Source: Albibacterium bauzanense
GTDB taxonomy: Bacteria > Bacteroidota > Bacteroidia > Sphingobacteriales > Sphingobacteriaceae
Assembly (NCBI RefSeq): GCF_004339765.1
Contig: NZ_SMGO01000003.1
Location: 372,001 to 436,000 of the forward strand
Length of the DNA stretch: 64,000 nt
Direction of reading: 5' to 3'
Shown: piece after piece, positions 3,711 to 51,625 of the stretch
Layout of the letters: every line of letters begins with the position of its first letter
How positions within the stretch are numbered: the first letter of the stretch is position 1
Notes under the pieces: generated by a model
The model's input: only the letters and a program-made list of their open reading frames with translations
The model's database searches: none
What the model was told of the DNA's origin: nothing
Position numbers and translations under genes: made by a program

Positions 3711-4748
3711 ATGAATAACATGATCAATTTACCCCTATTTCTGCCAGGACGAAGCCAAAATAAAGTAGCTAAAATACTTGCTGTCGATATCGGTGGTACC
3801 AAAACAAGTTTTGGTTTATTTACCATAGTCGGTGCCAATGTAAATCTGGTTCAGGAAGAAACTTATCCTTCTAAAAATTATTTATCCTTTAACGTTATTT
3901 TAGACAAATACCTACAAGAACATGTTTCTTCTATTCCAGACATACTGTCTATTGGTGTAGCCGGCCCTGTTGTAGATGGCAAGGTGCAGCTTACTAACTT
4001 GTCCTGGTCAATCGATGCTAATGTACTCCAACAGGAAAAAGGCATTACGAAAGTTTTTTTATTAAACGACCTTGAAGCAACAGCTTATGGATTAGCAGGC
4101 ATCGAAAAAGACGATTTAGCAATCATCCATTCGGGAGAACAAAAGAAAGGAAATGTGGCTATTTTAGCTCCAGGTACTGGACTTGGTGAAGCAGGATTAT
4201 TTTGGGACGGTTCATGTTATCGGCCGTTCGCAACTGAGGGAGGACATAGCGAATTTTCTCCACGCACTGAGCTGGATATAGAATTATTTCACTATCTGCG
4301 CAATGAAACACCTCTCATCAGTTGGGAGTATTTAATTTCTGGAGATGGTATTTATCGCATTTATACTTTTCTGCGAGACATTAGAGGCTATAAAGAACCT
4401 ACATGGCTTGAAGAAAAGTTAAGAACCGAGATTCCAGCAGCCGTAGTCAGTCATACCGCCATACGTCAGTTAAATGAAACCTGTGTAAAAGCTATGCAAC
4501 TTTTCGTTACTTATATGGCCCGTGAGGCAACAAATCTAGTATTAAAATTAAAAGCAACAGGAGGCCTATTTCTTGGTGGAGGAATACCTCCTAAAATATA
4601 TCCGTTATTACGAGATGAACTATTCCGACAACAGTTTATTCAAAGCGATCGCATGGAGCCACTTCTTCAGGACATCCCTATACACCTTATTTTAAACAGT
4701 AAAGCAGCATTAGTAGGTGCTGCTTATTATGGAGCTTTTTGTGATTAA
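3711..4748 (+). CDS. glk: Glucokinase
   Basis: A 345-residue glucokinase of the Glk type (PF02685), which phosphorylates glucose with ATP in the cytoplasm. Visible landmarks are the phosphate-1 loop AVDIGGTKTSFGLF near residues 24-37, LLNDLEATAYGLAG with the sugar-binding/catalytic Asp, the adenosine-side LAPGTGLGEAGLFWDG, and TEGGHSEFSP with the conserved acidic residue. The first ATG (MNNMINLP) gives about 20 residues before the core; the second Met three codons on is an alternative start. The gene faces a convergent ABC permease. Its position near glycan-degrading genes fits a role in feeding released hexose into glycolysis, though the genes are not one operon. Confidence 0.9.
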   Translation: MNNMINLPLFLPGRSQNKVAKILAVDIGGTKTSFGLFTIVGANVNLVQEETYPSKNYLSFNVILDKYLQEHVSSIPDILSIGVAGPVVDGKVQLTNLSWSIDANVLQQEKGITKVFLLNDLEATAYGLAGIEKDDLAIIHSGEQKKGNVAILAPGTGLGEAGLFWDGSCYRPFATEGGHSEFSPRTELDIELFHYLRNETPLISWEYLISGDGIYRIYTFLRDIRGYKEPTWLEEKLRTEIPAAVVSHTAIRQLNETCVKAMQLFVTYMAREATNLVLKLKATGGLFLGGGIPPKIYPLLRDELFRQQFIQSDRMEPLLQDIPIHLILNSKAALVGAAYYGAFCD

Positions 4749-29709: not shown

Positions 29710-32700
29710 TCATCCTGCTTTATAATAAATTGTAATCTTGTCTTTATTGTTTTTAATCGTACCTAATTTTTCAGGCAATAATTTCTTCACTCCTTCAATA
29801 AAGGATTTCAACCCAGGAAAATTGGGAAAACTCCTTTGTGTAGTGTCATTCATAGAAATATTGTTGTAAGGTTCGTCCCAAGTTGACTCTATATTTTTAT
29901 AAGTTTCAATTGATATTTCTAATACTATCGGTGACAGGACCCTTATCCTTTCAGTCGTTGAGAACGAAAGCTTCAAAAGATTTATAACGTTGGCTATCTC
30001 GATAAGTTGAGACCATAAGGCATAGCGTGATAAAAAGGTTGTGATTGTCGAGCCGAGCTCATCTTTTTCTACTGTTTTGTTCGCTAGAATCAGGCGTACT
30101 AAATTAGCTTTTTGCTCGTCGCTATTCTGTGCGGAGTTAAGAGCACCTATCAAGGTTTGATCAGTAATTGAAAACTCGGAGAATTTTTCCAAAAAGTCGT
30201 CGAAGTACTTGCTAATGTACAAGTTTGTCAGTCCAGGATGATTAGTCTCTAAATCGTTGAATATCTCATTAACAAAACCAAAACGATTACTTCTAATTAA
30301 ATAGCTGGCCTTTTCCTCGTTTAACTTTCCTACCTCTACATCTTCCAATTTTGGAGAAAGTTGCTCTATAAGTCCTTTATAACTATTCATGCTAAGCTCA
30401 TTCCGGTAAAGTACTTCGTGAGACAAATCGATAAGGTTTTCTTGATCCGGATTACCAGTTGGCACATACGGTTCCTCAACAAGCACTTCATAAACTTCTG
30501 GATCATTTAGATAACTGGTGAGCGTATCTTCCAGAACTCCTTTATGAAAAAAATAAGTTGAAACATTATTCCAAGTTGGGCTTAACCGTCGTTCTGTAAT
30601 TAAAAAATACCAATAAATCTCTGGAACCATCTGCATATCTGTTATGAGCGCATCTTGTTTTCTCACAAATGATTCAACTTTCTCCATATCCATTGTTTCG
30701 ATATGTAGGAGTTTTATAATCGTTTCTTCGCTTTCTTTTACATTCAGCTCGCTGCTGCTAATAAGCTCCAAATATTCGGGCCATTTCATTTCAAGGTAAC
30801 TTTTGAGGTTCTTAGCTTCCGAAGAAAGGACAGTAGTTAAGTTAGCCGTGATCCAATCATTTTCAGGAAATACCTCATAACCTCCAAATTTTCTCAGTAT
30901 ATATTTAAGGTTTTCCGAATTGATTTCATAACGATTCCCTTCATATGCAGCCTTAAGAGTCTTAGGCAATTTTTCAAGTAAACTAATTTTCTCTAGTGAA
31001 ACATCTAGTTCATTCATGACCACTCCTAGTGTATCCTGGTTATCCTTAAGCAAACCATCTTCATATAGGTTTGAATTGAAGGATAGAAATTTGCTAAAAT
31101 TCTTACTGGCATCGATTTTCTTCACGAAGGTATCGATAGAAAGATATCGGATGAATAAGGCTGCATATTTAGCTAATACTGCATCTTCATAAAAAGCCTC
31201 TTCAAAAAGGTGATCCCAGAATTCTGACCAATGAAGTCCAAGGGCAATAATAAATTCACTCTGATTTTTATTTAATTCTAAAAATTGATCAATAAATACA
31301 AGCTCGTTCCTACCTTTCAACATTTTAATTAATATGGAGAGTTCATGGTCACGGTTAGGCTGTTGTAGCAACCATCTCAGTAAACTAAAATTAAGTATGG
31401 CAGGATTTGAATATTGGCCAACACTTATCCAGTCTTTTTGAATGACGTCGATATTACTAATCTCATAGGTATAAGGTAAAGGTTGTCGGTTTAAAACACT
31501 CATCACAAAATTCATATCTTCCTTTTTTAAACTACCTTCAATAAAATAAGAAATATATGGATGATAATACTCGTCGATATAACCATTGGCCATAAGATAG
31601 ATAAGGATAGGCGAGGTGGGCTTTTCAGTTGAAAACTCTAACTCTTCTTCATCAATTAAATTATCTCTAAAACTTTGACCCGTAATCGAGGCTCCCTGTT
31701 GTTTTGGTGAGACTATCCTTTCAGATGGAAATTCGAACTTACCCCCATCATTTATGATTTCTTTAAGACTTTGACCAGAAATCAAAGCACGTTGTTGTTT
31801 AAGAGAATCAATTTTTGCTTTGGTCCTATTTATACCCTCATTGCAATATGATTTAATTTGATCTTCGCGGTGGGAATAATTGTAGACTGGATCCACTTCC
31901 TTTTCTGCGTCGGAAAATGAGTATTCGAAATTAACTTTTCTGTAGTCACCATAATAACTACTATACTGAATAGCAGTAGCAGATCCTCCGTTTCGCCACC
32001 AATCAAAAATCTGATCTTCTACAAATTCGGAAAGACTAACTTTGCCGTTGAGCTCAAGAGATGCCATCTGGGGCATGGCCGACATTACTTTATAGATATA
32101 AAGTGTCCGAAGTTCATTAATATCTTTTATTTTGAGAGATTCAAGATCTCGAATGTAAGTTTGGAACTCATTTATCTCATGATCAATCTTTTCTTTTTGT
32201 TCATTGACATAGGCTTTCTTTTTTTCCAATACATGTATAATCATCCCTTCTCCCCTATGGAGTTCAGCAAAATCTTCAGGATGAAGATTTTTGAATATTA
32301 TTAGTGAAAGTAACTTTTCAGGATCTAAGTCTTTAGTTAACTGCGTAAAATAGAGACTAAACTCATTAATGACATTTAACAACATTCGCATATCCTGTAT
32401 ATATAGGGTGACTGTACTTAATAGATCCCTTGGAATTTGCCGTCCTGGTATAATCCTTTCTAGCCTTGCAGCAAGTGCGTCTCCTGCGTTAGATATATTA
32501 ATAACTGGAATAACTGGAACTAAAAAGTCAAAAAACTTAGTTCGGTTGTCCTCCGTAAATATATTGTCACGTACCGCATAAACAAAAGTCACCTTATGTT
32601 TGATCTGCCTTGAATTATTAATCAGGATGTTTATTTCCCTGAGTTTGGTAAATATCTCGGGGTCATTAAAACGATCTAAGTCTTCAATGACCACAATGCT

Positions 32701-33624
32701 GGTACGAGTTTCCTCAAAAAAATAGATTATTTCATCAAGATGTTTATTAAATATTGAACGGACTTCACCTTCCGAAAACTCAGCACCAGCAGAAACAACA
32801 GACAACTTAGTAAAGCGCAAATTTCTGATATTACGATAGAGTCGATACAATAAGTACATACAACCAAAGATCAAAATAACAAGAAAAACAAGGTCTAGTA
32901 CAGATCTCATCTCGTTCGTAATAAACTGAAATTTTGTAAAATAACCTGGTTGCACCACATAAAAATAGGATAACACTAAGATTGATAGTGATAACGTCCC
33001 AAATAAACGCCTAAACCAATGTATAGGTCTTATTTTCACAAAACGTGAATCTGGTAGAGCATGACTTCTTTCGTGGTAAATGAGCTGTTGTAGTACACTG
33101 AGCTCTACCTTGTTTCGCCATTCACCCTCTTTATCCTTTATTTCGTCAAAAGAGGCAAGTGAAACATTCACAGTTCGGAATTCAGGATGGCGCTTTTGAA
33201 AAGTGCGGATAATACTGCTTTTTCCAGAGCCGTAAGGTCCCGTAATAGCAATATTGGTAACATTAGGATTCTTTATTCCCCAAAGTAACATATCACTATA
33301 TAGCTTTTTACTATCTGCACTATCAATCGGCGCTAAGTCCTGATAACGATTAGTATTGGGGTTGAAAGCAAACTGAGTCAATCGGCCATCAAGAAATACA
33401 ATAAGTGTAATTAATATTTTGCTGATTCTGGTTTTCAGCATACTAGGTATTAAAATTACCGCTGAATATGCGGACCTCCGTTCTCGATTCAGGGCAGCAC
33501 GAAAAATCTTTAATCTTCTACGGATGTTGCTCGGACGAGCACCGTGCTTTTTCGGTATCGTAGCAGCTTTCTCAGGAGTCGGAGAGTTGTCTAGAGTATC
33601 CATTAGTTTAGAATGCTTCATCAT
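29710..33624 (-). CDS. YobI-like membrane P-loop NTPase, probable defence protein
   Basis: A 1304-residue protein. The ATPase domain has a Walker A GPYGSGKSS at residues 129-137 and a Walker B VVIEDLDRF at about 311-319; between them two membrane helices (about 209-225 and 243-262) are inserted, as in KAP/YobI-type ATPases. The remaining ~900 residues are helical with no family I recognise, and include a duplicated ~32-residue unit around residues 605-670 (QQRALISGQSLKEI and QQGASITGQSFRDN). Related membrane-inserted NTPases occur in phage-defence islands. It is transcribed alone, next to the attachment site and a decayed DUF4391 gene. Confidence 0.75.
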   Translation of the reverse strand: MMKHSKLMDTLDNSPTPEKAATIPKKHGARPSNIRRRLKIFRAALNRERRSAYSAVILIPSMLKTRISKILITLIVFLDGRLTQFAFNPNTNRYQDLAPIDSADSKKLYSDMLLWGIKNPNVTNIAITGPYGSGKSSIIRTFQKRHPEFRTVNVSLASFDEIKDKEGEWRNKVELSVLQQLIYHERSHALPDSRFVKIRPIHWFRRLFGTLSLSILVLSYFYVVQPGYFTKFQFITNEMRSVLDLVFLVILIFGCMYLLYRLYRNIRNLRFTKLSVVSAGAEFSEGEVRSIFNKHLDEIIYFFEETRTSIVVIEDLDRFNDPEIFTKLREINILINNSRQIKHKVTFVYAVRDNIFTEDNRTKFFDFLVPVIPVINISNAGDALAARLERIIPGRQIPRDLLSTVTLYIQDMRMLLNVINEFSLYFTQLTKDLDPEKLLSLIIFKNLHPEDFAELHRGEGMIIHVLEKKKAYVNEQKEKIDHEINEFQTYIRDLESLKIKDINELRTLYIYKVMSAMPQMASLELNGKVSLSEFVEDQIFDWWRNGGSATAIQYSSYYGDYRKVNFEYSFSDAEKEVDPVYNYSHREDQIKSYCNEGINRTKAKIDSLKQQRALISGQSLKEIINDGGKFEFPSERIVSPKQQGASITGQSFRDNLIDEEELEFSTEKPTSPILIYLMANGYIDEYYHPYISYFIEGSLKKEDMNFVMSVLNRQPLPYTYEISNIDVIQKDWISVGQYSNPAILNFSLLRWLLQQPNRDHELSILIKMLKGRNELVFIDQFLELNKNQSEFIIALGLHWSEFWDHLFEEAFYEDAVLAKYAALFIRYLSIDTFVKKIDASKNFSKFLSFNSNLYEDGLLKDNQDTLGVVMNELDVSLEKISLLEKLPKTLKAAYEGNRYEINSENLKYILRKFGGYEVFPENDWITANLTTVLSSEAKNLKSYLEMKWPEYLELISSSELNVKESEETIIKLLHIETMDMEKVESFVRKQDALITDMQMVPEIYWYFLITERRLSPTWNNVSTYFFHKGVLEDTLTSYLNDPEVYEVLVEEPYVPTGNPDQENLIDLSHEVLYRNELSMNSYKGLIEQLSPKLEDVEVGKLNEEKASYLIRSNRFGFVNEIFNDLETNHPGLTNLYISKYFDDFLEKFSEFSITDQTLIGALNSAQNSDEQKANLVRLILANKTVEKDELGSTITTFLSRYALWSQLIEIANVINLLKLSFSTTERIRVLSPIVLEISIETYKNIESTWDEPYNNISMNDTTQRSFPNFPGLKSFIEGVKKLLPEKLGTIKNNKDKITIYYKAG

Positions 33625-33793
33625 TGTAAGTTAAATCTTATATATCTGTAATTTTGCCGTTGGGTCTCCAATAGGATTATTTTAAAAATGACTTTCGGTC
33701 TGCTATTATATACCTGAAAGTCTCAAAAAAATCTTTGCCAAGTATTTATCTAAGTCGCTCTAAAAAACATTAGACCAATTGTACCGAGCTTAT

Positions 33794-34060
33794 TTATAGC
33801 GCTAAGGTTGTAAACAGCCTCTCCAACTCACCTTCTTTCGATTTCAATTTCAAATTTGGTTCAACCTTTTTATTAAATTGCTTGCAAGGAATAATTTCTG
33901 TCCTCAACAGAGAAATCTCTTTTTTTAGCGGTTCAATCTTCCCCTCATTTTCGACCAGCTCTGGTAATGGTAGTACTTTTTTTTCCTTATTTCCAGATAG
34001 CTGAATACATCATGATAAACAGCCTCAATACAAAAACTGATGTAATGTACCTATCACCTT
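33794..34060 (-). pseudogene. Remnant of a DUF4391-like gene
   Basis: On the minus strand a coding-like segment reads IEAVYHDVFSYLEIRKKK, then after a frame change in an eight-A run continues VLPLPELVENEGKIEPLKKEI, RTEIIPCKQFNKKVEP and stops at 33794. The ending, a coiled coil with QFNKKVEPNLKLKSKEGELE, resembles the C-terminus of DUF4391 proteins, which accompany helicases in defence loci. The 5' part is missing and the frame is broken, so it is non-functional. The remainder of 33625-34214 contains only the promoter of the next gene. Confidence 0.4.
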
Positions 34061-34186
34061 TTTTTGTAAAACCTTTCCCAATTCATTCTTAATCCTTAAC
34101 TCCATACATGCATGGTCGGATTGTTAAATAATACTTTAAAGCTTCCCTCTAAACATGACACAATGCCATATTATAAACCTAATGGT

Positions 34187-34194
34187 TATATTTG
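34187..34194 (+). promoter_or_regulatory. -7 promoter box of the AlbA_2/Abi_C pair
   Basis: TATATTTG matches TAnnTTTG and lies 20 bp before the ATG of the AlbA_2-domain gene, giving a short leader. No convincing -33 box is seen. Confidence 0.45.
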
Positions 34195-34214
34195 AATAAA
34201 TCAATTATATAAAA

Positions 34215-35195
34215 ATGAATTATTGCGAGCAAATCTTCAAGAAATCATTACGAGAGCTAAAGTACAAGGATTTAGAGTCTTTCTTTCAACAAGAAAGAGA
34301 AGAAAGTGAAATTCTTGAATTTAAATCACTAGGAAGAGATACTATGGATGCGACGCTGACTAAACATGTATTCAGAACTGTTTCCGCATTCCTAAATTCT
34401 TCAGGAGGCATCCTGATTTTGGGAAGCCCTGTCCCTACTGAAATTATAAAATATAAAAAAAAGGTGAAAATTTGCCATGGTATATTAACGTTAACATCAG
34501 AATATATAGAAAAAGATATTTTAATTAATCGGATTTCGACTGCTATATCATATATGCCTATCGGGATAAATATTCAAGTGATCGAACAGGAAAACAAGTA
34601 TTTATACCTAATTGAAGTCCAAGAGAGCAATTCCAAACCGCACCAGCACAACGGCATATATCATATACGATTAGATGGGCAATCTAAACCGGCTCCACAT
34701 TATTTAGTAGACGCAATGTTTAACCAAATAAAATATCCGGATCTTGATGTAACTGCATTCTTTTTATTGCACTCAGAAACCAGCGATACAATTAAGTTAT
34801 GGGCTTATTTAGTTATTACAAATGAGTCTTACGTTTTGAATGCGATTGACTATGAATACAGAATCGATTTTCTATCGAAAGGCGCCTCATCTGAAGACAA
34901 AACCAAATCGTTCATGGAAAATATGAGGCTAAAAGTTCAACCTAAAACATTAGCTGCAGGAGACAAAGAAGAGATTGAAGATCACTTTTATGTAGATAAA
35001 GCTCATTGCAATGACAATCTATTCATTCGAATTAATGCTTATGCAGCAAATACACCCCTAATTTCAAGTTATTATCAAATAAAATTCGATGATAAAAGGT
35101 CCAGGAAAGGCTTGCCCATTCATAAAGAGTTATTTAAAAATATAAAAGGTCAGGAGAATAAAAAAATAGTACAAAAACTGACTGAGCAACAGTAA
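34215..35195 (+). CDS. AlbA_2 (Schlafen-like) domain protein
   Basis: A 326-residue protein whose N-terminal ~170 residues match the AlbA_2/Schlafen-type nucleic-acid-binding fold: REESEILEFKSLGRD, VFRTVSAFLNSSGGILILGS and later YLYLIEVQESNSKPHQHNGIYHIR. The C-terminal ~150 residues are predicted mixed alpha/beta of unknown type, with no ATPase or protease motif. AlbA_2 domains occur in regulators and in many anti-phage systems. It is 44 bp upstream of an Abi_C-domain gene in the same direction, with a promoter box only before the first gene, so the two probably form one operon and act together. Confidence 0.75.
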   Translation: MNYCEQIFKKSLRELKYKDLESFFQQEREESEILEFKSLGRDTMDATLTKHVFRTVSAFLNSSGGILILGSPVPTEIIKYKKKVKICHGILTLTSEYIEKDILINRISTAISYMPIGINIQVIEQENKYLYLIEVQESNSKPHQHNGIYHIRLDGQSKPAPHYLVDAMFNQIKYPDLDVTAFFLLHSETSDTIKLWAYLVITNESYVLNAIDYEYRIDFLSKGASSEDKTKSFMENMRLKVQPKTLAAGDKEEIEDHFYVDKAHCNDNLFIRINAYAANTPLISSYYQIKFDDKRSRKGLPIHKELFKNIKGQENKKIVQKLTEQQ

Positions 35196-35239
35196 AGAAA
35201 TAACTATTTTCAATCTAAACTAAAAGAAAACTATAAGGC

Positions 35240-36142
35240 ATGGACGATTTATTTTCAATTCGGAATAAAAACAAAAACTTACCCTTAATATATGATAACT
35301 TCCCTGAAAAACCTAAAGTTCAAATCTTTCTATTATTTGGCAAATTGACATATAGTTTAGGGGAAGATACATGGGAGGTATTTTGGACTAATGTTCATTC
35401 ACGCATACGTGAAGCGGTAGGCAAAAATGACCTTATAAATGGAAAATTCTTTCCGATGTCCTCATTTGAGGAGTCTAAGGTGTATTTTGAAAAGAAGGCA
35501 TCAATTGAAGAAAGTTTCGATATTCTGGAAATTATAATGAGACTTTTAAAATGGTGTTATGAAAACGACAAAATCAATATACAAGATGCTGATATAGAAA
35601 AAATTACAAAAAAAATCAACAAGATACTACACAACAATGATATCGGATACGAATACTCAGAAGGCGCTATTATACGAATTGACAGCAAGCATCTACATAA
35701 AGAAATCATTAATAAAACAATAAACCTAACGAATAATGAATTATTTACCAATGCAAACGAGGAATATCTAAGTGCATTACAACATTTGAAAGCTGAGAAG
35801 AATAAAGAAGCATTAAATGACGCATTAAAGGCATTCGAATCAACATTGAAAATTATTTTCGACAATTTTGACTGGTCCTATGAAAGCAATGCAACATCGA
35901 GTAAACTCCTTGATATTTGCTTTCAAAACGAGCTTATTCCAAAGTATTTAGCAACGCATTTTACTGGACTGAGGGCAACTTTATCTTCAGGGATCCCAAC
36001 AATACGAAATAAAAATGGCGCACATGGACAAGGAAGTAAAGCCATAACAGTTCCTAATAGCCTCGCTATTTATGCAATCTACCTAACAGGAACTAGCATT
36101 AACTACCTTATCGATGCTTTTAATGATTTTCCGAGGAAATAA
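35240..36142 (+). CDS. Abortive-infection family protein with C-terminal Abi_C-like domain
   Basis: A 300-residue protein. The N-terminal ~100 residues (PKVQIFLLFGKLTYSLGEDTWEVFWTNVHSRIREAVG) resemble the AbiJ/STM4504-type N-terminal domain, and the C-terminal region (ALKAFESTLKIIFDNFDW, then LRATLSSGIPTIRNKNGAHGQG and SLAIYAIYLTGTSINYL) matches the Abi_C domain. The IRNKNGAHG stretch is HEPN-like, with R and H separated by six residues, and could be a ribonuclease site. Abi proteins typically halt growth after phage infection. Its partner is the AlbA_2 protein upstream. Confidence 0.7.
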   Translation: MDDLFSIRNKNKNLPLIYDNFPEKPKVQIFLLFGKLTYSLGEDTWEVFWTNVHSRIREAVGKNDLINGKFFPMSSFEESKVYFEKKASIEESFDILEIIMRLLKWCYENDKINIQDADIEKITKKINKILHNNDIGYEYSEGAIIRIDSKHLHKEIINKTINLTNNELFTNANEEYLSALQHLKAEKNKEALNDALKAFESTLKIIFDNFDWSYESNATSSKLLDICFQNELIPKYLATHFTGLRATLSSGIPTIRNKNGAHGQGSKAITVPNSLAIYAIYLTGTSINYLIDAFNDFPRK

Positions 36143-36676
36143 AATACTGCCTTTTCGCAAAAAAACAAATCTTATATATACAGTAAATTTGAGTGTCGAA
36201 GCGCTTAGGTATCAGTTATCTTCTCCGCATGAGCACACTCTTCTGTAATAACAATATAAACTCCGCAGCCTCTTTCGGCAAATTTCAGTAATGGAAGGAT
36301 GGAATGGAGAAAATTGTCGAACGTAGTTGCACCGCTTTTCGCTCATCTGCATTTCTTCCTTCGGAAAAAGCAGACGAGCCGCCCAAATCGTTTTGGATCA
36401 TTCAAGAATCTGCATCACCTCAACAGTCCCCAAACTATTAATATCGTTCCCACCCATTTTAACATTCCCTCCAAAAAAAGGGTCAATAAGCCCATAAAGT
36501 AATTGCTGAGATGCTGTACGCCTCCCCACCCTCTACGGTTGAACTCCGCATCCCGACAAAAAGCTTGAAGGCTATTCCCGACCCCACCCATGTTGGGTAG
36601 GATACTGATTGAAAAAAACTGCTGATCGTTTCCACGTCCACTTTAGGTTAAGAATTTTAAAAAAGGGGTTTCCCCC
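36143..36676. other. Geneless interval, possible decayed coding sequence
   Basis: No intact gene is supported. On the minus strand around 36210-36300 a short coding-like segment (FAERGCGVYIVITEE) ends in a stop, which suggests a gene remnant I cannot identify. A 67-codon plus-strand frame at 36299-36502 has no recognisable features. Confidence 0.35.
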
Positions 36677-37147
36677 TTAAATCATTCCCTCATCTGCGAA
36701 TGAATAATAACGGTCAGATGTTATGATAACATGGTCCAATACCATAATATCTAAATAGCTTCCTCCAGTTTTAATCTTCTTGGTTAATTCAATGTCCTGC
36801 TGACTTGGTTGCAAGTTTCCTGAAGGATGGTTATGACTTAAAATGATGGAACTTGCACAAGCTTTTAATGCTGTTGAAAAAATCAGTTTGGGATCTGCAA
36901 CTGTTCCAGCGATTCCTCCAGATGATACTTGAAATATCCCAATCACGTTGTTTGCTCTATTCAATAATAGGATTTTAAACAGTTCCAATAGTTCAATTTT
37001 ATCCAAATCCCAATTATTATATAGAATCTCATAAGCGTCCTTGGATGACGTTACTTTTGGTCTTTCTGACGCTTTAAATTTGGGTCTGTAGGTTAAATTG
37101 ATTTCTGATACCTGGTACAATGAAATCTGATCTTGTTGCGTAGCCAT
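36677..37147 (-). CDS. RadC-like JAB domain protein
   Basis: A 156-residue short RadC: NWDLDKIELLELFKILLLNRANNVIGIFQVS followed by the JAB/MPN metal site ILSHNHPSGNLQPSQQDIELTKKI and the ending DHVIITSDRYYSFADEGMI. Chromosomal RadC has an additional N-terminal helix-hairpin-helix half, which is missing here; the short form is a hallmark of conjugative elements and plasmids, where it is thought to help incoming DNA survive. The chemical activity is not settled. It is expressed leftward from its own promoter region. Confidence 0.88.
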   Translation of the reverse strand: MATQQDQISLYQVSEINLTYRPKFKASERPKVTSSKDAYEILYNNWDLDKIELLELFKILLLNRANNVIGIFQVSSGGIAGTVADPKLIFSTALKACASSIILSHNHPSGNLQPSQQDIELTKKIKTGGSYLDIMVLDHVIITSDRYYSFADEGMI

Positions 37148-37534
37148 AATCTTAAATTTTAATAGTTAATAAATTAATTATGGCACTTTATCTGCCTCTA
37201 TGAGGCACTAAGGGCAAGGTGGAGATTTTAAAAATGCGGAGGGTTCCCACTTCTGGGATACCCATTTTTCAAATACACCTTGGCATCAGCAAACCCGTGT
37301 GAGGAATTGGAGGCTAACTTTGTGGGATAATTGATGTGTTAATTCTTTTTTTCGGGTACCCTATTTACAAGATTCCTATCTATATTTAAAACCTAATATC
37401 TTTTTTTAAGAAAAAACTATCTTCATGACAGAATTGGTTAAGTTAAAATTTCAGTTGAGACCTTATATTTAAAAATTTTCCACGAAATCAATAAAATCCT
37501 TACTATATTTAGGAAACCCGAAATCCTTACGCTG
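37148..37534. other. Intergenic region without a supported gene
   Basis: This 387-bp AT-rich interval separates the divergent radC and DUF4160 genes. A near match to the -7 box, TATATTTA, is at about 37502-37509 in front of the DUF4160 gene. I see no open frame with coding character, tRNA or strong hairpin. Confidence 0.4.
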
Positions 37535-37882
37535 ATGGCTGATGATATATTAGAAAGAATAGTAGCAGATGCTTTACGCATTTATCTTAGCTATGACGAC
37601 CGGACTATTGAGTTTTTATTGAATAACCCAAATTACGCGGATAAAAAACGAATTGAGACGATTGAACATCTTGAGGTATTGATACATTCAGACGACCATC
37701 TTCCTCCGCATTTTCACGTCAGGTCAAATGATTTGAAGATTAATGCCAAATTCTCTATTGAAACGGGCGAACACTTGTCAGGGCCCATCCGTCCAAAAGA
37801 TGTTAAAAAAATTAATGCCTTCTATCAGAGCATAAAGGGCAAAACAGTTTTACAAACCGTTTGGAAAAAGTTTCATGGTTGA
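37535..37882 (+). CDS. DUF4160 domain protein
   Basis: A 115-residue protein. The C-terminal two-thirds contains IHSDDHLPPHFHVRSNDLKINAKFS, the conserved His/Pro-rich core of DUF4160 proteins, then LSGPIRPKDVKKINAFYQSIKGKTVLQTVWKKF. An N-terminal extension of about 45 residues is not typical. DUF4160 proteins are usually ~80 residues and paired with a DUF2442 gene, a suspected toxin-antitoxin arrangement; no partner is present here. Whether it is active alone is unknown. Confidence 0.7.
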   Translation: MADDILERIVADALRIYLSYDDRTIEFLLNNPNYADKKRIETIEHLEVLIHSDDHLPPHFHVRSNDLKINAKFSIETGEHLSGPIRPKDVKKINAFYQSIKGKTVLQTVWKKFHG

Positions 37883-50104: not shown

Positions 50105-51625
50105 TTATATTCGATCTTTAAACGGTACATCCGGCAAATACATAAGAATGGTATGCTTTTGTTCCTTTCCTACTTCCTCATGATGGATTGCTAAAGAGGT
50201 GTAAATTATTGCAGCTCTTATTAGCCGTAACTGCTTAAATGTTTTTTGTTCGAATTTTGCTCTGCCAATCGAGAATGTGAAATTATCTTCATCCTCTCCC
50301 CAATTTCCATATTGTTTGATCTTGAACGACTTGTGTTCGATGTGATTTCTAATTTCTGACAACTCCTTTGCTTCAGGTTCAATAGCTTCTACATGTGCGT
50401 CATCTTTATCAAATAAATCTTTGCTTAGCCAATATAAGCCTCTTAAGGCCAAGTTCCGATTGCCCATGAAAATATTTCGTAAAGACCTATCTCTATTATT
50501 TTCATGCCATAAGCCTCTAAAGCTTGTCCTATTTCGGGGCATCCCTACTTTTAAATAATCGTTTAGGAGATACGCTATTTTATCAAATAGAGAGTAAATT
50601 ATTCTGTACGTAATTTTAATCTTTTCAAGGTTATACGAGTACTCCGCATAATCTGAAGTATCTACCAAAACAATGTCCTTATCACCATAAGACTGGGATG
50701 GCAATCTAGTTCCTTCATAAAATAAAAATCTTGCAGTTCCGTATTCTTGTTTAATTTGATTAAATAATGTATGATATTTTGGAGTTGCGTTAAGTTCCAC
50801 CGTCATACTTGGCAAATGGAGAAGATCATGTGAAGCTATTTCCAAGGGGCCTAAATCATTCAAAGAGTTGAGATATAAAGTGTTTTGAAGGCACCATTCT
50901 CTGTAAGACCTTAGCTTTTTATTTTTACCTAAATCAAATTCAAAAGATTGCTTGGAATCTAAATATTCCTTGGGCCATTGCCTTTCGATGTTTTCTAATA
51001 GTTTTTTAAAGGATTGATACGCATTCGGATGAAGAAAATTCTTATAGTTAAGTGTTTGTTTTAAATGTTTATAGGCATGGTAAACAAAAATAGTTTTATG
51101 AGAACTAGAGTAAAGGCAACCAGCGTAGCTAAAAAGTCCATGACCAATATTTCCTAATGCCATAGGAAAATAAGATATGACAGAAAGAGCTTTATTCCAC
51201 CATTCCTGTGCATCAATAAAACGTCCGACATGGGAAAAATGATTACCTAAATTGGTGTAAACCTGACATTGAAGCTCTGATTTTTCTTTATTAAAATCTT
51301 CGATCGAAATACATTTCCTAAGATGGAAGAGTTCTTTACTTAGCTCTTGTTGGTCAAAGTCCCAACTTTCTGATTTTTCATATCGGGTGAAAAAGCGTCT
51401 GGAAGACCATCCGTTAGCAAGATAATAATGAAAACGAATAAGATCTGAATTAGAAAGGTTGCCGTCGGCAATTTTTAAGCTAAGCTCCAGTCCTTTATCA
51501 ATTCCTTTGGGATTATTTAAGTCTAATGATAAGTCAAATAATTCTCCGATAAAATCAAGAATTTCAACATCGTTGAAATTTGTCGGATCAAGCTCTAGAA
51601 GTTGATCAAAAGATCTTTTGCTCAT
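50105..51625 (-). CDS. LA2681-type HEPN protein with TPR-like N-terminus
   Basis: A 506-residue protein. The N-terminal ~180 residues are TPR-like (VYTNLGNHFSHVGRFIDAQEWWNKALSVI). The C-terminal part resembles the LA2681 HEPN family: YSLFDKIAYLLNDYL, FRGLWHEN, LRGLYWLSKDLF and the catalytic motif LSEIRNHIEHKSFKI (RNxxxH) near residue 425. LA2681 HEPN proteins are predicted RNases in conflict systems. The gene is tail-to-tail with the other RNxxxH gene. Confidence 0.75.
   Translation of the reverse strand: MSKRSFDQLLELDPTNFNDVEILDFIGELFDLSLDLNNPKGIDKGLELSLKIADGNLSNSDLIRFHYYLANGWSSRRFFTRYEKSESWDFDQQELSKELFHLRKCISIEDFNKEKSELQCQVYTNLGNHFSHVGRFIDAQEWWNKALSVISYFPMALGNIGHGLFSYAGCLYSSSHKTIFVYHAYKHLKQTLNYKNFLHPNAYQSFKKLLENIERQWPKEYLDSKQSFEFDLGKNKKLRSYREWCLQNTLYLNSLNDLGPLEIASHDLLHLPSMTVELNATPKYHTLFNQIKQEYGTARFLFYEGTRLPSQSYGDKDIVLVDTSDYAEYSYNLEKIKITYRIIYSLFDKIAYLLNDYLKVGMPRNRTSFRGLWHENNRDRSLRNIFMGNRNLALRGLYWLSKDLFDKDDAHVEAIEPEAKELSEIRNHIEHKSFKIKQYGNWGEDEDNFTFSIGRAKFEQKTFKQLRLIRAAIIYTSLAIHHEEVGKEQKHTILMYLPDVPFKDRI

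Follow-up and report, generated by a model that had tools for sequence, protein, structure and literature searches.

Two adjacent genes, here called P1 and P2, lie in the 64,000-nucleotide stretch of DNA that was analysed (the window). In the reading we consider likely, they are two independent, self-contained abortive-infection-type RNase genes that stand side by side, are probably carried on one transcript, and belong to the defence-rich cargo of a CTnDOT-type ICE. P1 (34215..35195, + strand, 326 amino acids) is a bacterial Schlafen protein, with an SLFN_AlbA_2 domain at residues 30–160 (Pfam PF04326, 1.3e-13). P2 (35240..36142, + strand, 300 amino acids) is a member of the STM4504/CBY_0614 family (NF046078, PF18863, PF22809). 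The original prediction had put the two genes forward as a candidate undescribed two-gene anti-phage system. Both proteins are further members of already recognised families, and the claim of two-gene novelty is not supported. A defence-like role for each gene does appear well supported by sequence comparison, because both lie in ICE cargo, belong to known Abi/HEPN and Schlafen families, and have relatives on plasmids or in prophages.

The ICE and its variable cargo

The ICE was identified by its genes for TraM, TraJ, TraG, RteC, a relaxase, and a coupling protein, and the earlier placement of the pair in ICE cargo thus stands. The tra backbone also occurs in six related ICEs, whose TraM proteins are approximately 54–58% identical. 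At the corresponding position, most of the related ICEs that were read carry RadC relatives with 62–78% identity; L102 and L103 have no RadC in the part read, and L099 stops at a contig end. The cargo varies between the related ICEs wherever it is readable, and both P1 and P2 are absent from all of the stretches read in these six ICEs. Because the backbone is conserved, the cargo differs, and no related stretch holds either gene, we regard the pair as variable cargo.

On one side the pair is flanked by a gene for a YobI-type P-loop NTPase (29710..33624, – strand; PF20693, 9e-118) and a DUF4391 remnant (33794..34009, – strand), and on the other by the RadC/JAB gene of the ICE (36677..37147, – strand; PF04002, 3.8e-38), which bounds the variable cargo slot on one side. 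All three neighbours had been named correctly from the letters of the sequence. The remnant retains only a C-terminal part of its domain and matches the last 51 model positions (182–232 of 232) of PF14335 with a score just under the cut-off (E 4.6e-6). The YobI-type ATPase is a relative of Tmn, a transmembrane NTPase defence; its match to the PADLOC Tmn model (4.1e-82) covers about the first half of that model. It is a separate gene, however, on the opposite strand to the pair. Within this Tmn-like gene there is an imperfect 82-nucleotide tandem duplication (31623–31704 and 31719–31800, 72% identical).

Several other genes of these elements were recorded. A DUF4160 gene with a weak match to the DhiT toxin and no obvious partner is found between RadC and a tra-side lipoprotein gene (37535–37882, + strand). 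A second HEPN-type gene in the same ICE, HEPN_LA2681 (50105–51625, – strand; Pfam 2.4e-74), lies between the tra genes and rteC and has no match among the PADLOC models. In one related ICE (G123, L104 8133–12799), three unrelated genes occupy the slot on RadC's other side. On visual inspection they look like genes for a reverse transcriptase, a HerA-type ATPase and a SIR2-type protein, and may form a defence set. That same slot in a same-genus ICE (G017, L098 5901–8916) has genes that, again by eye, look ubiquitin-like and JAB/E1-type-like. An AlbA_2 gene near the G017 ICE (L098, approximately 14.8 kb) was dropped as a lead, as it encodes a different kind of AlbA_2 protein.

P2 and the AbiJ-NTD4/HEPN family

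P2 matches the NCBIfam model for STM4504/CBY_0614 (NF046078) with 223.5 bits against a cut-off of 150, over model positions 2–280 of 281. Its N-terminal domain is AbiJ_NTD4 (PF18863, 2.3e-13, residues 3–159) and its C-terminal domain is the HEPN domain DUF7014 (PF22809, 1.6e-32, residues 169–292). The protein had been described as carrying an Abi_C domain. That name was rejected, since the Abi_C model (PF14355) gives 19.3 bits, under the Pfam gathering cut-off of 24, and DUF7014 is the better assignment; the broader description of P2 as an Abi/HEPN-type protein holds. The HEPN-like stretch IRNKNGAHG on which the description had relied is genuine. It contains the motif R256-x5-H262, both residues of which are invariant in 29 aligned homologues, as are K197, E200, S201, N257, G263, Q264 and G265. 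By score, by the presence of both domains, and by the invariant R-x5-H motif, P2 is a full-length member of the family.

An AlphaFold model of P2 (pLDDT 86) is mostly helical with a small beta-hairpin, and the loop bearing the motif is the low-confidence part. In a Foldseek search with this model the top-probability matches were the HEPN structures 2hsb, 3o10 and 1ufb (probability 0.99). Since their E-values of 0.5–0.7 are above 0.1, these matches lend support to, but do not prove, a helical HEPN fold in the predicted structure.

The architecture itself has been known for some time. AbiJ-NTD4 was named by Anantharaman et al. in 2013, with CBY_0614 as the type protein in which it is fused to a HEPN domain. 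The authors proposed that the N-terminal domain either recognises phage components or holds back the HEPN RNase, and that the RNase acts as a suicide toxin (PMC3710099). P2 has the same arrangement, AbiJ-NTD4 followed by a HEPN domain with an R-x4-6-H motif. In the literature searched, AbiJ-NTD4 appeared in the 2013 paper only, no paper matched DUF7014 or PDC-S32, and no functional study of the P2 family was found. PDC-S32 is a candidate single-gene defence in PADLOC. Its models are matched by all 29 of the aligned P2-family members (best 2.6e-14), whereas the window P2 itself gives a low-scoring match over part of the model only (residues 64–209; 9.6e-6, 23.5 bits).

P2 differs from other members of its family in its divergent N-terminal domain, in the loss of most of the family's SKRQKR motif, and in having a Schlafen gene alongside. 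Identity to the window P2 among relatives is 35–46% in the HEPN part and 18–25% in the N-terminal part, the latter against viral-contig homologues. By analogy with the published proposal, the probable role of the variable N-terminal domain is to detect phage components or to keep the C-terminal HEPN RNase in check; once released, this RNase would cut RNA and lead to growth stop or death of the infected cell.

Relatives of P2 are found in 335 plasmid records, 299 of them predicted to be conjugative, and the version on E. coli plasmids is present in 398 of 5,426 complete E. coli genomes. Further relatives are found in one E. coli filamentous prophage and 34 viral contigs. In the contexts read they usually stand alone. 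On one viral contig (L047 2873–5061) the P2-family gene is spread over two open frames and is probably a broken copy.

P1 and the Schlafen nucleases

The identification of P1 as an AlbA_2 (Schlafen-type) protein was confirmed with 52 bits against the Pfam SLFN_AlbA_2 model, for which the cut-off is 25.3. A profile built from 17 P1 relatives matched Schlafen structures in the PDB, with an E-value of 1e-11 for 5yd0, and also SLFN11, SLFN12, SLFN14 and SLFN5. With the anti-phage bacterial Schlafens and with vertebrate SLFN13 and SLFN11, P1 has in common the AlbA_2 core, the E-x4-E-F-K and N-S-x-G-G motifs, and the combination of a conserved nuclease part with a variable C-terminal part. E30 and E35 of P1 align with E205 and E210 of SLFN13 (ESASIEFK of 5yd0), which in the rat protein are pivotal for RNase activity (PMC5862951). 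Across the 17 relatives E30 is invariant, and position 35 always holds E or D. P1 differs from these Schlafens in having a single lobe, a C-terminal region of its own, and no third carboxylate: P72 is found where SLFN13 has D248, and members of the P1 subfamily have G-A/S-P opposite the GVD of SLFN13. RNase activity of P1 is uncertain because its subfamily does not have this third carboxylate, but it could still be possible, because SLFN12 is likewise without the D248-equivalent aspartate in the printed alignment.

The original prediction had assigned P1 the part of a nucleic-acid-binding sensor and P2 that of an RNase-like effector. The AlbA_2 domain of P1 can be aligned with the Schlafen RNase core and has retained the two pivotal glutamates. 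P1 is therefore more likely to be an effector than a protein that only senses by binding DNA, and we set the sensor-only assignment aside as less likely. The N-terminal AlbA_2 domain would then be a probable RNase, with a tRNA-type substrate suggested by other Schlafens, and recognition of the trigger would probably fall to the variable C-terminal half. Identity to the window P1 among relatives is 37–56% in the Schlafen part and 11–22% in the C-terminal half, which is beta-rich by low-confidence secondary-structure prediction. An AlphaFold model of P1 from three sequences was poor (pLDDT 47) and was set aside.

Conservation thus suggests that P1 and P2 each combine a conserved effector with a fast-changing sensor. 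As each joins a conserved part to a fast-diverging part, in opposite order, both look like complete sensor-plus-RNase proteins. This argues against a division of labour in which AlbA_2 is the sensor and HEPN the effector.

Relatives of P1 occur as solo genes in two viral contigs or prophages and also between unrelated chromosomal genes. On a Spirosoma plasmid (L008 3045–4531) a shortened P1 relative is arranged head-to-head with a Lit-family phage-exclusion gene. A contig scan with P1 alone as the query gave a single, distant match. A comparative-genomics paper from 2026 cites prokaryotic Schlafen-linked systems as anti-phage tRNases or modules (PMC12839542).

We also considered that one or both genes might have no role in defence, for example with the AlbA_2 protein as a transcription regulator, and be neutral cargo of the ICE. 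Some proteins with AlbA_2 domains are annotated as regulators or ATP-binding proteins. One such annotation was encountered among the loci read, and the missing third carboxylate of P1 would be in keeping with a role of this kind. However, the cargo site beside a Tmn-like gene, the solo occurrence in prophages, and the conservation of RNase motifs are more in line with conflict genes, and we judge a non-defence role very unlikely.

Association of the two genes

P1 and P2 had been described as a compact operon with one promoter box. The two genes are on the same strand and are separated by a gap of 44 nucleotides, and a TAnnTTTG box of the –7 type, TATATTTG, is present by sequence match upstream of P1 (34187..34194, + strand). 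The window contains 82 such boxes where 77 are expected by chance. Because this frequency is at chance level, the box is weak and at best suggestive as evidence of a promoter, and it was dropped as a promoter argument. A search of the 44-nucleotide gap for a –7 box found none. A single transcript is plausible because the gap has no further box, and to this extent the layout suggests that P1 and P2 are probably co-transcribed. A search of positions 33000–37600 against Rfam returned no family, and the repeats around the pair are short and chance-like only.

A true module, in which the Schlafen protein and the HEPN RNase cooperate because one senses for or licenses the other, or because they cut RNA in layers, might be expected to recur in other genomes. 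In the stretches read, no P2 homologue was found near P1 relatives at any of 13 readable loci (L066–L070, L076, L077, L088–L093). An adjacent AlbA_2 gene on the same strand was found at 2 of approximately 42 P2-family loci (40 plus two more, a count that includes some near-relatives), leaving 40 without one. In L014 the AlbA_2 gene is in reverse order with a gap of 8 nucleotides. In L046 it is upstream of the P2 relative, with a gap of 229 nucleotides and an AlbA_2 score under the Pfam cut-off. Both proteins belong to other subfamilies than P1, and gene order and AlbA_2 subfamily vary across the three loci. In a class sample of 395 genomes, 7 carry P1 relatives and 3 carry P2 relatives; the window genome is the only one with both. 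The check proposed with the original prediction, co-occurrence of the two families, therefore shows that a conserved neighbourhood is largely lacking, and a conserved two-gene AlbA_2 and HEPN operon was rejected on these counts.

The two adjacent cases do exceed the genome-wide background of AlbA_2 genes, which is roughly one per 2.8 Mb (28 genes in 21 relatives, approximately 78 Mb). As such genes are more common in defence and mobile regions, the excess does not argue strongly for a system. The same-strand layout with its short gap, the AlbA_2 neighbours in L014 and L046, and the presence of other HEPN-type genes beside P1 relatives (AbiV in L068 and DUF4145 in L070) all speak for cooperation. 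Nevertheless, given the neighbourhood counts, the variable order and subfamily, and the frequency with which both genes occur solo, we consider a true two-gene module unlikely.

The same loci could be read more loosely, as an exchangeable cassette of two RNases in which Schlafen subfamilies repeatedly join different HEPN families, with layered or mutually controlling shutdown of translation as the outcome. Its cases would be AbiJ in the window, L014 and L046, DUF4145 in L070, and AbiV in L068. We hold this to be quite unlikely.

HEPN toxins are often paired with an antitoxin gene, and P1 might accordingly restrain P2 in uninfected cells, as the antitoxin or regulator of a HEPN toxin. One P2 relative (L108, G909) has downstream of it a gene (4149–4571) that by eye is nucleotidyltransferase-like, an arrangement reminiscent of HEPN/MNT toxin-antitoxin pairs. 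However, P2 relatives usually occur alone and so have no need of a P1-like partner, and P1 relatives are also found alone. Moreover, P1 is not a small protein, and its similarity is to Schlafen nucleases rather than known antitoxins. A toxin-antitoxin or regulator-toxin pair is, in our estimation, highly improbable.

We therefore prefer to view P1 and P2 as independent genes, probably two single-gene defences of known kinds brought together by chance rather than a new two-part system. The short gap, shared strand and lack of a second box count against this preference, in that they could suggest co-expression and, through it, cooperation. If independence is right, the false lead of a new two-gene system is removed and two single-gene candidates take its place. 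One would be the AbiJ-NTD4/HEPN family, which is widespread both on plasmids of E. coli and Salmonella and in prophages, and the other a Bacteroidota Schlafen subfamily without one catalytic carboxylate.
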